DNA of 64,000 nt from Candidatus Saccharimonadota bacterium (lineage in GTDB: Bacteria > Patescibacteriota > Saccharimonadia > Saccharimonadales > UBA4665), in assembly GCA_029288365.1 (NCBI GenBank), contig JARIHI010000005.1, positions 62,001-126,000 on the forward strand, given 5' to 3'. The notes under the pieces were generated by a model. That model was given only the letters and a program-made list of their open reading frames with translations. It did not search any database and was not told the origin of the DNA. Position numbers and translations under genes: made by a program. This document shows, piece after piece, positions 20,406-47,507 of the stretch; position 1 is the first letter of the stretch, and each line of letters opens with the position of its first letter.

Positions 20406-21704
20406 ATGCATATTTACTTCTCTGGTATTGGGGGCACCGGGTTAGGCCCCTTGTCCTTGATCGCAAAGCAAGCTGGGTTTCAAGTATCGGGCTCGGACAA
20501 GCAAGATTCTCAATATATCCACTACTTGCAAAAACAAGGCATAGGCAATATTCATATTGGCCAAACATACGACGATATTGCAGCTGTACATGCTAAAGAA
20601 CCTATAGACTGGCTCGTTTATACCACAGCCGTTACCAGCGAGCAGCTTAATCCTCCCGAACTCAAGTTTTGCAAAGAAAACTCAATCCGCACCAGTAAGA
20701 GAGATGAATTGCTAAATCATATCCTGCACGAAAAAAGCCTGAAACTTATTGCAATAGCCGGAACTCACGGAAAAACCACTACTACAGCTATGGCAATCTG
20801 GCTCTTCAAGCAATTGAATCTGCCGGTCAGTTACTCGGTGGGTGCTAAGCTGCCATTTGGTGATATGGGTATCTATGATTCCGCGAGTGAGTATTTTATC
20901 TACGAAGCGGATGAATACGCGCGGAATTTTTTGGCATTTCACCCACAAGTATCCATGATTACAGGCGTTGATTGGGATCACCCTGATGTATACAAAACTC
21001 AATCAGAGTACGAAGACGCTTTTCGTACATTCGTACAGCAATCGGCGTTAACTGTGGCTTGGAACACCGATATACAACGCCTACAGTTGCCTGTGGAGCC
21101 TAACCTATTGCCTCTCGACGAGAACGATACGATGCTTAGCAAAGTAACGCTAACTGGGAAAGTCAACCGACATAATGCGCTTCAGGTTGCTAGCGCTATC
21201 CACTCGATCACCCAAATACCGCTTGGTGAACTTTTAGGACATTTGAATAAGTTTCCGGGCATAAGCCGCAGATTTGAGCAGATTGTTCCCGGGCTTTACA
21301 CAGATTACGCGCACACACCCCCTAAAATTCAAGGAGCCCTGCAAACAGCCCAGGAAGTAGCCGGGAAAAAGGTTGTGGTGGTATATGAAGGTTTGCATAA
21401 TACTCGTCAGCACTTTATCAAAGAACATTTGAGGCATTTGTTTGACGAAGCAGAAAAACTTTATATTGTACCAAGCTACCTTGCACGCGAAGATCCTAAC
21501 CTGTCATTGTTGAGTCCTGAAGATCTGCGTGCTATGTTGAGTGATAAAGCTCAGGCCATAGCTACACCAAGCCGTTTGGACGAAAAACTGCACCAAAACA
21601 TACAACACCACCTCGAAGCAGGTGAACTTGTACTTTGCCTCACTGCTGGAGGTGGGGGAAGTTTGGACGAATGGCTTCGGCAAACGTTTACAATAGAGCA
21701 ATAA
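20406..21704 (+). CDS. murC: Mur ligase, UDP-N-acetylmuramate--L-alanine ligase type
   Basis: 432 residues. The N-terminal Rossmann motif FSGIGGTGLGPLS (5-17), ATP-binding GTHGKTTTT (119-127), central DWDHPDVY and the C-terminal domain with YTDYAHTPPKIQGAL show a Mur ligase; the start IYFSGIGGTG fits MurC or its recycling relative Mpl. The reaction adds the first amino acid of the peptidoglycan stem in the cytoplasm. Length is slightly below the usual 450-480. TAGACT lies 6 bases before ATG with no RBS. The 3' end overlaps the convergent gene by 17 bases. Confidence 0.88.
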   Translation: MHIYFSGIGGTGLGPLSLIAKQAGFQVSGSDKQDSQYIHYLQKQGIGNIHIGQTYDDIAAVHAKEPIDWLVYTTAVTSEQLNPPELKFCKENSIRTSKRDELLNHILHEKSLKLIAIAGTHGKTTTTAMAIWLFKQLNLPVSYSVGAKLPFGDMGIYDSASEYFIYEADEYARNFLAFHPQVSMITGVDWDHPDVYKTQSEYEDAFRTFVQQSALTVAWNTDIQRLQLPVEPNLLPLDENDTMLSKVTLTGKVNRHNALQVASAIHSITQIPLGELLGHLNKFPGISRRFEQIVPGLYTDYAHTPPKIQGALQTAQEVAGKKVVVVYEGLHNTRQHFIKEHLRHLFDEAEKLYIVPSYLAREDPNLSLLSPEDLRAMLSDKAQAIATPSRLDEKLHQNIQHHLEAGELVLCLTAGGGGSLDEWLRQTFTIEQ

Positions 21705-23418
21705 TTGCAAGCACGATAAAGAAAAAGACGACCCAAAGGATAATATCTAGTCCGCTACTATCAGATGCTTTGTCTCGCATGGTATGAAAGGCGTTATTGA
21801 CTGGTGAAGTGGGCTCTGCTTTCTGAGAAGCGACAGGCGGGTCATGAGTTTCAACCGTTGTGCTGGTTGTTTTATCTACCATAGGCAAATAACTTTTTTT
21901 AACTTGCTCGCTCTCCACACTAGCTTCAGCAATTTGGCGTCGCAATTGCTCTTGGTGCTGTTCATTTTGAAATTCTTCGCCGTATGCGAGTGTGGGATTT
22001 TCAACGGCTTTGCCTGTTTTTTTATCTACCTCAATGCGATGCCAGGCACTTGTCTCAACTCGTCTATCTGGAGGCACTTCTAGCAGCTCATCAGTAGGCT
22101 CGAGCTGTTCTGGTGCTGGAGCCTGTTTTTCAGGTACATGTATATCTTGGCGGCCAACCAGCGTTGTTTCGGAGGTACGAAACTTTTGCTTATATTCTTC
22201 GTAAAAAGTTGATTGAATTTCTTGCTGTGGTGATTTTTTTTCTTTGCGATTTTTGACTTTGCCCGCTTCGCTTTGGCTAGCAGCTTCCTTTTCTTTAGAA
22301 ACTGATTGGGTTAAGCGTTCAATCTGCTGCTCTAGTGTGGTTTTGGTGCGCTTCGCTTTTTGTTCAGCTTGGTAGTTCTCTGCTTGTTGGAATTGTTGCT
22401 CTTTTTTTAGCTCTTTGACTTCTTTTTTATGTACAGCTTTCATGCGCTTCTCACGGCGTTTGTGGCGAATGTGCTCTATAACCCCACCCAAGATGATTCC
22501 TGCCACAAGATTACGCCGTTCGGCATTTCTATCACGCCCAGGCGCACGATTGGCAGCAGCGGGTACGGCTGCAGTGTACGCAGCTGGTGCAAGATTTGCT
22601 GCTGCAGGGCCCCCTCCAAAGCCCGCTGGCTGAGCAGCAATTGGCGGCGTATGGGGTGGTGCTGTACCGCCACCCGCAGTGGTTGGAGTTGGAACTCGTC
22701 CTTGCCCTGTTCCCGGAGCAGCAGTCGATCCACCCAAACTCCTAGAAGTAGGCAACGTAGAAGAACCTGTTGCCTGTGGAGATGAGGCAGGAGTTGAGGT
22801 GGCTGTTACGATAGGTAATTCGTCATCTTCATCTGCTTCGCTATCCATAGCTCCTTGCTCTGGTGCTGGTACCGAGTCATCCGACTCTCTATCAAGCTTT
22901 TGCTGCAATCGATCCGACACAAATAGTTCACCTTCCTCTTCACCAACTTCATGAGGTAAAATAACCTTTTCAGCAAAGGTATCATCTGTTTTTTCAGACG
23001 TTTCTACCGTATGCGCAGACTCATCTGACTCTGGCATTTGCTCATCTACAAACGCTCCTTCCGAAATTGCGTCAGGTACAACCGAAGCTTGCTCTTTGCC
23101 TGCCTTTTTGGGCGAAGGTTTTTCTGTAGACTCTGCTTCATTGCCTGCGCTACTCGTCTCTGCCGCTGGTGTTCCAGCTTCTGAGACAGCAGTCGTTTTG
23201 GGTCTTTTCTTGGTCTTTTTTGATTTCAGAGCCTTTTCCCCGCCCTTGGATTTTTTATCTTCATCAGCAATTATTTCTAAAGGCACAGGAGCAGAAATTC
23301 GCTTTTTGCTTGTGCGTTTTTTCTTCTTTTCTTTGCTTGAAGCAGAAAGCTCACCACTAGCCTCGCTGATATTAGCAGGCTTATTCGTTTCGGAACGAGG
23401 TGTTTTATCAAATTCCAT
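21688..23418 (-). CDS. Large low-complexity, tail-anchored protein
   Basis: 576 residues. Most of it is charged and disordered: Lys/Glu/Ser-rich 1-200, a Pro/Gly/Ala/Thr-rich stretch (about 205-285), a basic segment (about 290-335, RHKRREKRMKAVHKK) and a coiled coil (about 340-385, EQQFQQAENYQAEQKAKR). A single hydrophobic helix forms the C-terminus (about 555-576, DIILWVVFFFIVLAII). The layout suggests a tail-anchored scaffold with its bulk in the cytoplasm. A short conserved-looking unit (TSAWHRIEVDKKTGKAVE) precedes the tail. No family is recognised. It overlaps murC convergently by 17 bases. Confidence 0.75.
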   Translation of the reverse strand: MEFDKTPRSETNKPANISEASGELSASSKEKKKKRTSKKRISAPVPLEIIADEDKKSKGGEKALKSKKTKKRPKTTAVSEAGTPAAETSSAGNEAESTEKPSPKKAGKEQASVVPDAISEGAFVDEQMPESDESAHTVETSEKTDDTFAEKVILPHEVGEEEGELFVSDRLQQKLDRESDDSVPAPEQGAMDSEADEDDELPIVTATSTPASSPQATGSSTLPTSRSLGGSTAAPGTGQGRVPTPTTAGGGTAPPHTPPIAAQPAGFGGGPAAANLAPAAYTAAVPAAANRAPGRDRNAERRNLVAGIILGGVIEHIRHKRREKRMKAVHKKEVKELKKEQQFQQAENYQAEQKAKRTKTTLEQQIERLTQSVSKEKEAASQSEAGKVKNRKEKKSPQQEIQSTFYEEYKQKFRTSETTLVGRQDIHVPEKQAPAPEQLEPTDELLEVPPDRRVETSAWHRIEVDKKTGKAVENPTLAYGEEFQNEQHQEQLRRQIAEASVESEQVKKSYLPMVDKTTSTTVETHDPPVASQKAEPTSPVNNAFHTMRDKASDSSGLDIILWVVFFFIVLAIIALL

Positions 23419-36456: not shown

Positions 36457-37053
36457 TTATCGGATACTTGCGTATAGCCACTCCTTTTTGGCATATCTAA
36501 CAACACTTGTAAGTAACCCATCAGTGTAAGCATTGTGTCGAATCGCATGACGCATTTTTGTACTTGATACACCGGGACACAAATTGTCTACAATACGTAT
36601 AAATCTTGGTGGAATACGAAGCACCTGAATCGTAGTAAGTACTGCCCGTAGTTCGTCTTTTGTATCTGCGGCCACTATAAACTCGGCCTTTCGTACTAGC
36701 CAATCTATATGCTGCCATTCAGGCATCTGTGTAAACATATCTGCTCCCGTGAGAAATACTAATTGGCTATCAGGAAATGCTTGCTGCAGTTGCCGTACCG
36801 TACGCTTTACAGTAAACTGCCGGTCAACTAATTCAAGTACAGACAAGTCTTTGTGAGGCTTTATGGCCTGACGAAGCATCGCCACACGATGCCCATAATG
36901 TTCGGCTCCGGGCTTACGAAATGGTTTTCGCTCAGGTAAAAAATATACCCCACCTAAGTCAGCTTGCTCTAAGGTCTGTAGCGCAAAACTAATATGTCCA
37001 CTATGCACCGGATCAAAAACTCCGGCATAAACGCCAATCCGTACTTGCTTCAT
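36457..37053 (-). CDS. nadD: Nicotinate-nucleotide adenylyltransferase
   Basis: 198 residues. GVYAGVFDPVHSGH (7-20) holds the nucleotidylyltransferase HxGH motif (H17, H20), FLPERKPFRK follows, and the C-terminal PGVSSTKMRHAI is the ISSTxxR-type motif. The enzyme adenylates nicotinate mononucleotide to deamido-NAD. A perfect TATAAT (37061-37066) lies 7 bases before ATG 37053 and overlaps the last codons of the upstream gene, so it has its own leaderless promoter although both genes point the same way. Confidence 0.9.
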   Translation of the reverse strand: MKQVRIGVYAGVFDPVHSGHISFALQTLEQADLGGVYFLPERKPFRKPGAEHYGHRVAMLRQAIKPHKDLSVLELVDRQFTVKRTVRQLQQAFPDSQLVFLTGADMFTQMPEWQHIDWLVRKAEFIVAADTKDELRAVLTTIQVLRIPPRFIRIVDNLCPGVSSTKMRHAIRHNAYTDGLLTSVVRYAKKEWLYASIR

Positions 37054-37061
37054 GGTACTAA

Positions 37062-38498
37062 TTATACGCTTTTACTTTTACTGGCTGTACACCCACACGT
37101 GCCCTTAATCTTTGTTGCAGTTACTGTCGTTAAGACGTTTTTCGCACCACATTTAGGGCATTTTTTAGATACAAACGTGCATGATTCATCATCGTCTCTG
37201 GACTCTGAAGTTCGTCCGCTAACGCCTCCAGGACAGGAGTCTGACTGGTCGTTTTGCTTAGCGCGATACATATATTCTAACCCTCGTTCTACTTCTCCAG
37301 CCTCCATGGCCCTACGGGCCCTGTATATGTCCTCAGCAGACAAGTATCCAAAGACTTGGGGGTCAATAGAATAGTCAAAAATTGCCTGCTCAATCATATG
37401 TTTGCCGCTAATTTCGTTAAGCATTTGACATGCGTGTACTTCATCACGCATTTGTGGATACAAACGTACTATCTCATTCGTAATGGCATCAACCTTTGGC
37501 TTAAACGCCGCTTCACGTTCTCTGCATTCAGTTTTGTATGTAATATAATTTTTTGGTTTCTGATCTTGCCCAAAAAATGTGGCTCTTGATCCAGCGCCAC
37601 TATCAGCATCTACTTCGATATCAAATCTTTCCGCAATATCTACACCGCCGTTTTGAATATTTTCGTTTGATACAAGTATTGGCGAGTTCAGCATTTCCGT
37701 TACTGATTTGTTAGAAAAATCTACGCCGAAGCTTTGTGCTATTGCTCGCACAGCCCTGATATCATGACGTGTTCCGCCCGGCTGCTTTATCCCCGCCACG
37801 AATACGGACTCCGTTACAAGTTTGCCATTCCTAACAGTAGTTACTTGGATTGAGCAACTCATTGTATCTGTGAAGAAACCTGCTTGTTTCATTTCTGCTG
37901 CAGTCATATCATCTGGTGCACATGAAAAAACTACAAAACTGTGGCCTTCAAGCATGCCTGTTCTCTGATAGTGCTCTAACCTGAAGTGATTTGTTACTTC
38001 GGCTTCAGTTCGGGCGCGCATCTGGGGGGTTTTAGCAGCAAATTTCAAAGCATTTGCTTGCACAGAATACATGCTCTGACCACTCTGGTGTGACACGCCA
38101 TTATCTCCCACATTTACTGCAACTTCAATCACATGCCCTGCCTTTATGGTACGTTCAACCACATCGGTCTTGACGTTAAGCCTTACCAGAGACAACGCTT
38201 CAGGATCACCATGGTATGCCGCTTGCATTGCTTCAAATAAAGAATTAAAACGTGATGCGTGCGCTTTTAACTCAAAGGTAGCCGAGGTAGCAACAGATCC
38301 TATAAACCGCGCTGCTTTTTGCTGAATCTCGCAATCTTCTGGTGCCTCACTAATGGCAATGGCTTGTGAATCTACCGGAAAATCAAGATGGTCAATGGAA
38401 TGACGAGCAAGTGCTCGCTGTGTTGCTTCACTGGGTTCAAAGTCAAGGTGAGCTATTGGATCATTTTGCTCTACTCTTTCCTTTTCTAAAACGCTCAC
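37062..38498 (-). CDS. Unknown protein with C-terminal zinc ribbon, under a cobalamin riboswitch
   Basis: 478 residues, soluble, with no signal peptide or membrane helix. An acidic N-terminus (1-50) precedes a large alpha/beta region (about 60-290; TVVEV-type strands around VIEVAVNVGDNGVSHQSGQS, HSFVVFSCAPDDMTAAEMKQ and NGKLVTESVFVAGIKQPGG), a helical region (about 320-420; YLSAEDIYRARRAMEAGEVE) and a C-terminal ribbon of CPKCG...TCGC type. No RNR, MetE, Cob, Btu or transporter motif is seen, so the usual B12-controlled products do not fit. The start is GTG 38498 with TGAGGG upstream. The cobalamin aptamer at 38571-38718 should turn it down when B12 is plentiful. Confidence 0.75.
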   Translation of the reverse strand: MSVLEKERVEQNDPIAHLDFEPSEATQRALARHSIDHLDFPVDSQAIAISEAPEDCEIQQKAARFIGSVATSATFELKAHASRFNSLFEAMQAAYHGDPEALSLVRLNVKTDVVERTIKAGHVIEVAVNVGDNGVSHQSGQSMYSVQANALKFAAKTPQMRARTEAEVTNHFRLEHYQRTGMLEGHSFVVFSCAPDDMTAAEMKQAGFFTDTMSCSIQVTTVRNGKLVTESVFVAGIKQPGGTRHDIRAVRAIAQSFGVDFSNKSVTEMLNSPILVSNENIQNGGVDIAERFDIEVDADSGAGSRATFFGQDQKPKNYITYKTECREREAAFKPKVDAITNEIVRLYPQMRDEVHACQMLNEISGKHMIEQAIFDYSIDPQVFGYLSAEDIYRARRAMEAGEVERGLEYMYRAKQNDQSDSCPGGVSGRTSESRDDDESCTFVSKKCPKCGAKNVLTTVTATKIKGTCGCTASKSKSV

Positions 38499-38570
38499 TC
38501 TACCCTCACTTATTCCGAGCGAAAGATAGATACCTCAATATGAGGTCATTGCTCCTGCTCGGGAGTCTCA

Positions 38571-38718
38571 TTAGCTGTATCGGACTTGTCGCTTGACGTA
38601 AGCGTTATATACACCTATTGTCAAGCACATCACCGTAGCGGCACTGCCTGCGGATTCTCACCACACTTCCAGCTTTTTTATTTATAAAAGTAACTAATGC
38701 TAAGTGTAGCAGCTCAAT
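38571..38718 (-). ncRNA. Cobalamin (B12) riboswitch
   Basis: Read on the minus strand, the conserved parts occur in order: GGAAGTGTGGTGAGAATCC (38652-38670), the B12 box GGCAGTGCCGCTACGGTGA (within 38628-38648), a P7-type stem GCTTGAC/GTCAAGC (38591-38597 with 38620-38626), and AGTCCGATACAGC (38574-38586), equivalent to the consensus AGTC.GNNNACC.GC end. AGCTG near 38711-38715 pairs with CAGCT near 38573-38577 to close the element. Downstream, ACCTCA-TAT-TGAGGT (near 38532-38546) may compete with TGAGGG of the RBS at 38504-38510, so control is probably translational. TACTAT (38731-38736) is the likely -10. Confidence 0.85.
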
Positions 38719-38767
38719 CGCACACTAGATATAGTATTTTTCAACACAATTCTTACGCTATTTTTAC

Positions 38768-39460
38768 TTAATGCACCGTAAAGCTCTCAAGCGCGTTTTC
38801 AAGGATTTGATAATCAGGATTACTATTATGATCAATGTATTTGAAGTAGAACGTGTGCTTGCTTGAGGGACTGGCGAGTATCAGGTTGTGGCTGGTCGCC
38901 GTCGTACCTACACCTACTACATTACGCGTGTAATTGCCCATATCGCACAAAAAGTCGACGCCTTGCCACTTGGCAGCTAGCTTATCAACCCCGGCTGCTG
39001 CGGGATTACCTTTCGGTCCGGTGAATTCTACGCAATTTTCTGAAACCGAACCGGTTACAACGATTTTATTACTCTCGATAATAACTGGCAAAATCTTGTT
39101 AAATGCCACGCCTGTCGGCACACGATCAACATATACTTCCAGCCAACGGTTATCAGCATTCTTCTTCGTAGCTTGGTAGGAGTAAATATTATATGGTGCT
39201 TCGTTGTTGCCTTTAAATACCCAATCACTCGGTAAGGTTACGGTAAATGTATCTTGATTAAAGTTCCGTGTTTCTTCGCCCTTGGGTGGCGCGTACTCAC
39301 GAGTAATAGCTTGAGTGGTCGTTATTTGTTCATCGGGTTCGTTTAAAAATGTAATGACTGTATAGGCTACCACTGCGCCAAGCGCAAGCAAAACGAATAA
39401 AATAACTACCCATAGCTTTCGTTTGGTTTTTTTCTTGCTGCGCCGTCCTAGCCTATACAT
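38768..39460 (-). CDS. Hypothetical single-pass membrane protein, 230 residues
   Basis: A very basic N-terminus (YRLGRRSKKKTKRK) precedes one membrane helix (about 16-38, LWVVILFVLLALGAVVAYTVI), followed by an extracytoplasmic alpha/beta domain (about 60-230) with NFNQDTFTVTLPSDWVFKG, reminiscent of the PsbP/LpqN-like fold used for small secreted binders. Two Cys (ENCVEF and DFLCDM) could pair. No RBS is obvious; TATACT lies about 27 bases before ATG. No known family is recognised. It lies upstream of the riboswitch, in the same orientation. Confidence 0.72.
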   Translation of the reverse strand: MYRLGRRSKKKTKRKLWVVILFVLLALGAVVAYTVITFLNEPDEQITTTQAITREYAPPKGEETRNFNQDTFTVTLPSDWVFKGNNEAPYNIYSYQATKKNADNRWLEVYVDRVPTGVAFNKILPVIIESNKIVVTGSVSENCVEFTGPKGNPAAAGVDKLAAKWQGVDFLCDMGNYTRNVVGVGTTATSHNLILASPSSKHTFYFKYIDHNSNPDYQILENALESFTVH

Positions 39461-47449: not shown

Positions 47450-47507
47450 ATCAACTTTATGAGTTTTCAATACATGCTACGCTAGATATAGCCGAAAGGA
47501 GGGACCC

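Follow-up and report, generated by a model that had tools for sequence, protein, structure and literature searches.

The minus strand of a contig from Candidatus Saccharimonadota carries an open reading frame for a 478-residue protein, hereafter termed X, behind a gap of 269 bp. It was originally predicted that this gap holds the core of a cobalamin (B12) riboswitch, and that X is a protein of import, salvage or B12 sparing that belongs to none of the known B12 families. Which RNA occupies the gap, how it could control the gene, and what X may contribute to B12 metabolism were examined in the 64,000-nucleotide segment that surrounds the locus (the window) and in related genomes. The open reading frame itself (37062–38498, minus strand, GTG start) was found as described. 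The gene on the far side of the gap (38768–39460, minus strand) encodes 230 residues with an N-terminal hydrophobic stretch, and has no family match over the cut-off.

Identification of the aptamer

A search of the whole window with Rfam at the gathering thresholds returned two tRNAs and otherwise no match. With reporting by E-value, RF00174 (Cobalamin) was the sole family matched between 38450 and 38800. The match extends from 38708 to 38561 on the minus strand and covers the full length of the model (1–189), with an E-value of 0.0014 for the whole library. Its score of 21.4 bits is below the gathering score of 31.5 bits, so that the predicted family was recovered from end to end, although at a sub-threshold level. 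As this match was suggestive yet below the curated threshold, the aptamers of relatives were used. RF00174 matches were present in 52 of 60 related genomes, nearly always once per genome, and 16 exceeded the gathering score. In the order as a whole, 114 of 198 genomes had a match, 37 above the gathering score.

A covariance model, R1, was made from an alignment of the aptamers of 58 relatives, with the window left out. R1 picks positions 38677–38569 of the minus strand with 51.1 bits and an E-value of 9.8e-12, and its runner-up in the 64 kb reaches 18.9 bits. The second R1 match (21607–21727) lies mostly within a coding frame and was taken as chance. In the 58-sequence alignment, 16 core pairs are formed in 98.3% of the cells, and the covariation score of these pairs is 0.513, compared to 0.156 upon shuffling and less than 0.1 when the partners are slid. 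The core, which consists of P3–P6 and the B12 box AAGTCCGATAC, spans 38569–38677 on the minus strand, and not 38571–38718 as in the original prediction. Judging from the R1 score and the covariation, the leader element is a genuine corrinoid (B12) riboswitch aptamer, as had been proposed.

Several of the aptamers have an insert of roughly 90–150 nt in P6. A recurring pattern resembling AAAAGAGCAGCC...TGAGAAAAACC is found in four of these inserts (L074, L088, L162 and L163), which have no Rfam match at the gathering thresholds.

Putative promoter and operator, and the expression platform

The aptamer had been held to be the only explanation of the 269-bp gap. This does not hold, as the gap also contains a putative promoter, a palindrome resembling an NrdR box, a P13 hairpin and a hairpin over the ribosome-binding site.

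The palindrome ATACTATATCTAGTGT is 16 bp long and occupies the −35 position (38722–38737, minus strand). With a matrix derived from 43 other leaders, it is the top site of the 64 kb, scoring 27.1 compared to 15.5 for the next one. It fits an NrdR-box consensus at 14 of 16 positions. The second-best NrdR-box-like site of the window, with the score of 15.5, is at 47479–47494 on the minus strand. Across the leaders, C4 of the palindrome is present in 44 of 44 and G13 in 43 of 44; positions 4 and 13 of NrdR boxes are occupied by GC pairs that are conserved (PMC9110341). The sequence TGCTACACT (38703–38711, minus strand) corresponds to the consensus TGnTAnACT of the leaders, which sits at a fixed distance 3′ of the palindrome, and may be read as an extended −10 promoter element. 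In most leaders, the 16-bp palindrome is at about −35 of this element.

In several relatives, nrdR or nrdJ is also preceded by sites that the leader matrix detects. Such sites are paired, 32–33 bp apart, at five loci (L166, L168, L181, L182 and L185), and a site upstream of nrdR in a genome of Ca. Levybacteria (L180) scores 20.4. The second box of the X leaders is only half conserved, with start-to-start offsets of 30–33. NrdR requires a pair of boxes (PMC12051234), and the regulon was defined here by two boxes with a spacer of 14–17 bp. Because of the half-conserved second box, NrdR control of the X leaders is likely rather than certain.

The P13 hairpin (38552–38565, minus strand), delineated by conservation and covariation, is located 3′ of the B12 box and reads CTCC-CGAGCA-GGAG. 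Its loop, L13, can pair with L5 (UGCCG) if one base is bulged. In 87.5% of the leaders, compared to 0.25% of shuffled sequences, a CGNGCA loop is closed by a stem of 4 bp or more. The stem covaries, and all four bases occur at the position N of the loop across leaders. Once N bulges out, the loop can pair with UGCCG of L5, and this contact corresponds to the kissing loop known from corrinoid riboswitches. Farther downstream, folding of the leader with RNAfold and the pattern in relatives delineate a hairpin (38499–38530, minus strand) that buries the ribosome-binding site GAGGG (38507–38503) beside the GTG start codon. The pattern CCCTC...GAGGG-TATTTTT-ATG recurs in most relatives, and the hairpin with its TATTTTT tract could double as a terminator.

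A candidate ON-state helix may be formed by CCGAGC (38562–38557) and GCTCGG (38520–38515), spanning 38515–38562 of the minus strand. This helix is mutually exclusive with both P13 and the hairpin of the ribosome-binding site, and the minimum-free-energy fold of the window leader contains this pairing. For 60 leaders in aggregate, the longest complement between the 3′ side of P13 and the 5′ side of the ribosome-site hairpin is 4.95 nt, compared to 3.80 nt for shuffled sequences; for the window leader alone, the difference is not significant (p = 0.11). The repressing corrinoid riboswitch of Priestia megaterium metE has complementary sequences on the 3′ side of P13 and the 5′ side of its OFF hairpin, and the kissing loop is predicted to set the state of the switch (PMC10653944). 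As the arrangement of the X leader is that of the metE switch, we infer a B12-OFF switch, with regard to both the ligand and the direction of control.

Protein X, its spread and its association with NrdJ

The AlphaFold2 model of X (pLDDT 82, pTM 0.74) consists of an α/β domain (residues ~45–300) and a helical domain (~315–415), followed by a cysteine-rich ribbon. The prediction is a confident one, and a second subfamily yielded a model too. X has no match in Pfam or NCBIfam, which includes the absence of a ribonucleotide reductase (RNR) domain. The two models of the family found no fold match in the PDB with Foldseek, and one model found none among viral proteins. The original placement of X outside the known B12 families is upheld by these searches. 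Profile matches of X in the PDB were weak, concerned zinc ribbons of ribosomal proteins, and were rejected as generic. Since no relative of X could be detected by fold or sequence, there is no residue-level support for the binding of corrinoid or NrdJ.

The zinc-ribbon-like segment (C447, C450, C468 and C470; 37089–37160, minus strand) is defined by the conservation of its cysteines. In the 18 closer members of the family, C468 and C470 are invariant and C447 is nearly so; C422, in the linker that precedes the ribbon, is invariant too. Across the whole family the ribbon is variable. It is presumed that it binds zinc. The X protein of the window has no membrane-like segment (maximum 19-residue hydropathy of 0.78). 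Nearly all other members also lack such a segment, and no signal peptide was seen by eye. A C-terminal LAA-like degron, present in 7 of 48 X proteins compared to 3.8% of other long open reading frames, was considered too weak.

The next gene, nadD (36457–37053, minus strand), encodes nicotinate-nucleotide adenylyltransferase, with 110.2 bits for TIGR00482 against a cut-off of 112.45. It is a conserved neighbour, found 3′ of X in many relatives. The median pairwise identity is 16% for X and 37% for the neighbouring NadD.

X is downstream of 72 of the 79 aptamers examined. This bears out both that the riboswitch is fixed to a family of unknown function and that orthologues in related genomes also follow the aptamer. 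Among the seven remaining aptamers, four precede a membrane-protein pair DUF4430–DUF6580 (G008, G031, G400 and the first copy of G001). The others precede a class I RNR (G027), an unassigned frame of 533 residues (G377) and a truncated frame at a contig end (G047), the latter having been called X by an earlier profile. The DUF4430–DUF6580 genes are under the same leader in G001, G008, G011, G028, G031 and G400. X does not follow in G008, G031 and G400; in G011 and G028, X and the membrane pair are behind one shared leader and are therefore not simply interchangeable. At six loci (L054, L065, L071, L075, L099 and L156), a DUF4430 protein, which resembles an anchored B12 binder, and a DUF6580 membrane protein were noted downstream of aptamers. 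The pair is a candidate B12 importer that would function without EcfT. The aptamer of G027 (L091:145–235) is a second corrinoid riboswitch in a genome that has CobA and X, and the class I RNR genes behind it form an operon.

Among 287 genomes of the phylum that were searched with profiles, X was confined to the order of the window, with the exception of Ca. Levybacteria. The membership of Ca. Levybacteria in this phylum assigns the genome of the window to the Patescibacteria. A scan of genome contigs with a single X protein retrieved no relative, and a second scan retrieved the Levybacteria genome only. No X was found on plasmids or phages.

The adenosylcobalamin (AdoCbl)-dependent class II RNR, NrdJ, exceeds the cut-off in 55 of the 60 relatives, where it is almost always the sole RNR match, and a CobA adenosyltransferase is present in 57. 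The PduO-type adenosyltransferase is absent from these 60 genomes, which have the CobA type instead. Neither the B12-binding domain PF02310 nor EcfT is above the cut-off in any of them. The BtuC-type permease gave a few weak partial matches in this set and none in the genome of the window.

In one family (f26), the three aptamer-bearing genomes are the three that have NrdJ. The genomes of this family with a class I-type RNR or without an RNR match are absent from the aptamer positives, their inclusion in the scan being confirmed for G068 (negative) and not for most others. The RNR class is thus not uniform in f26: three genomes have class II, others have a class I-type enzyme, and a few complete genomes gave no RNR match. 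G046, which has a class I RNR, lacks both the aptamer and CobA. The gene order in G034 is nrdJ–cobA–aptamer–X. Outside the order, Ca. Levybacteria CG2_30_37_29 has the order nrdR–nrdJ–AdoCbl-II riboswitch–pduO–X-like. This riboswitch scores 43.7 bits, above gathering, and the match of the X-like protein is weak outside the ribbon. Four of the 55 NrdJ-positive relatives (G037, G053, G054 and G056) have no RF00174 match, so that either X is perhaps non-essential or detection fails in these genomes. Two genomes with the aptamer and CobA (G003 and G055) have no NrdJ match, possibly due to assembly gaps.

A proposed role for X in AdoCbl supply and comparison with known systems

The favoured model, which is more likely than not as a whole, combines a repressing corrinoid riboswitch with an NrdR-controlled promoter: X would be made when dNTPs and B12 are both short and would help to bring the coenzyme to NrdJ. 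The regulatory part of the model, supported in silico, is very probable. The mRNA of X would start at the extended −10 promoter, with the NrdR-box-like operator, presumably bound by NrdR, acting as the −35 region. Owing to this position of the operator, X would follow the demand for dNTPs. With a corrinoid bound, L5 would kiss L13, P13 would form and the downstream hairpin would hide GAGGG, possibly also causing termination (OFF). When no corrinoid is bound, the 3′ side of P13 would pair with the 5′ side of the hairpin, and the start would be freed (ON). The pairings themselves were observed; that they alternate in this manner is suggested by the metE precedent of P. megaterium (PMC10653944).

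That X belongs to the supply of AdoCbl for NrdJ is probable from its genomic associations. The soluble X protein with its cysteine-rich ribbon would act between the corrinoid and holo-NrdJ, most likely by feeding the adenosyltransferase (CobA or PduO) and NrdJ. A cytosolic corrinoid-handling role is favoured, X being soluble and both the adenosyltransferase and NrdJ being assigned to other genes. The specific designation of X as a cytosolic corrinoid-handling or processing factor, which is drawn from genomic linkage, is tentative, and two other functions are close rivals. The original interpretation is supported, and its range of import, salvage or B12 sparing becomes narrower through the link to NrdJ, adenosyltransferase and the NrdR box.

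The first rival is a function in B12 uptake. X would, for example, scavenge the vitamin in the cytoplasm or as an exported component, in place of the missing importer of an epibiont that draws its corrinoid from the host. The use of one leader for X or the DUF4430–DUF6580 pair, at times with only one of them, and the scarcity of EcfT and BtuC-type proteins are consistent with uptake, and the fast divergence of X is as expected for a partner-facing protein. However, the general lack of membrane-like segments and signal peptides, together with the two genomes where both gene types share a leader, makes this function unlikely. It is equally doubtful that X acts directly on NrdJ, as a reactivating factor, a chaperone or an inhibitor that is needed more when AdoCbl is short. 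The linkage of X to nrdR–nrdJ, its NrdR-like box, its co-occurrence with NrdJ, and the cysteine-rich tail with the invariant C422 would suit such a factor, but some NrdJ genomes are devoid of X, some have the membrane pair under the leader instead, and X has no homology to known reactivases.

A B12-sparing enzyme that substitutes for a B12-dependent step is improbable. Although B12-OFF control suits a B12-independent substitute, as with the class I RNR that a corrinoid riboswitch precedes in G027, X occurs together with NrdJ and not in its place, X is devoid of an RNR domain, and NrdJ is the only B12 enzyme detected. Finally, the sub-threshold RF00174 score of the window copy could mean that the element is a decayed cobalamin riboswitch or a chance resemblance and binds no ligand, which is most improbable in view of the strong covariation, the fixed kissing-loop hairpin, the E-value of about 1e-11 with an independent model, and the orthologous elements that exceed gathering scores.

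It is quite possible that X founds a new class of AdoCbl-supply proteins, without known fold relatives, serving NrdJ in Patescibacteria devoid of known B12 importers, under the double control of a dNTP-sensing repressor and a B12 riboswitch. A literature search, with most subscription journals outside its scope, found no paper that links Saccharibacteria or the CPR with a cobalamin riboswitch or a class II RNR. The riboswitch is of a known class, and both the target family X and an orphan gene under such double control seem to be undescribed. These bacteria with reduced genomes are apparently dependent on B12 for their DNA precursors, as NrdJ is nearly always their sole RNR match, an adenosyltransferase is present and importers of known families are nearly absent. 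X, or the DUF4430–DUF6580 pair in some genomes, stands out as the most clearly marked candidate for the step that is missing in B12 acquisition or use. The riboswitch and the NrdR box, which would subject one gene to an RNA switch as well as a dNTP sensor, make the role of X testable. The leader is also a predicted B12-responsive element native to Patescibacteria, for which an inducible-expression system is still to be developed (PMC11665869).

The X leader shares with RF00174 and the AdoCbl-II riboswitch (RF01689) the P3–P6 core, the B12 box, the L5–L13 kissing loop, P13, and a ribosome-site or terminator hairpin. It differs from them by a P6 arm that is mostly short, by the combination of L5 UGCCG with a bulged L13 CGNGCA instead of L5 UCCCG, by its position in front of an orphan gene, and by the score of the window copy below the RF00174 gathering threshold. 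The complementarity between P13 and the OFF hairpin is shared with the P. megaterium metE switch (PMC10653944). In contrast to metE, the OFF hairpin contains the ribosome-binding site and the start codon, so that control is probably translational or mixed. With the NrdR regulon, the leader has in common the 16-bp palindrome with C4 and G13; sites of this type also precede nrdR and nrdJ in these genomes. Unlike that regulon, the X leaders combine a single strong box with a second one that is half conserved, and X is no reductase.

In Streptomyces, a B12 riboswitch controls class I RNR genes while a class II RNR is also present. A corrinoid riboswitch is found there, as in the X leaders, together with NrdR-type control on a gene of RNR supply, and G027 presents a parallel case. 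The difference is that X, no reductase itself, occurs alongside the class II RNR rather than in its place.
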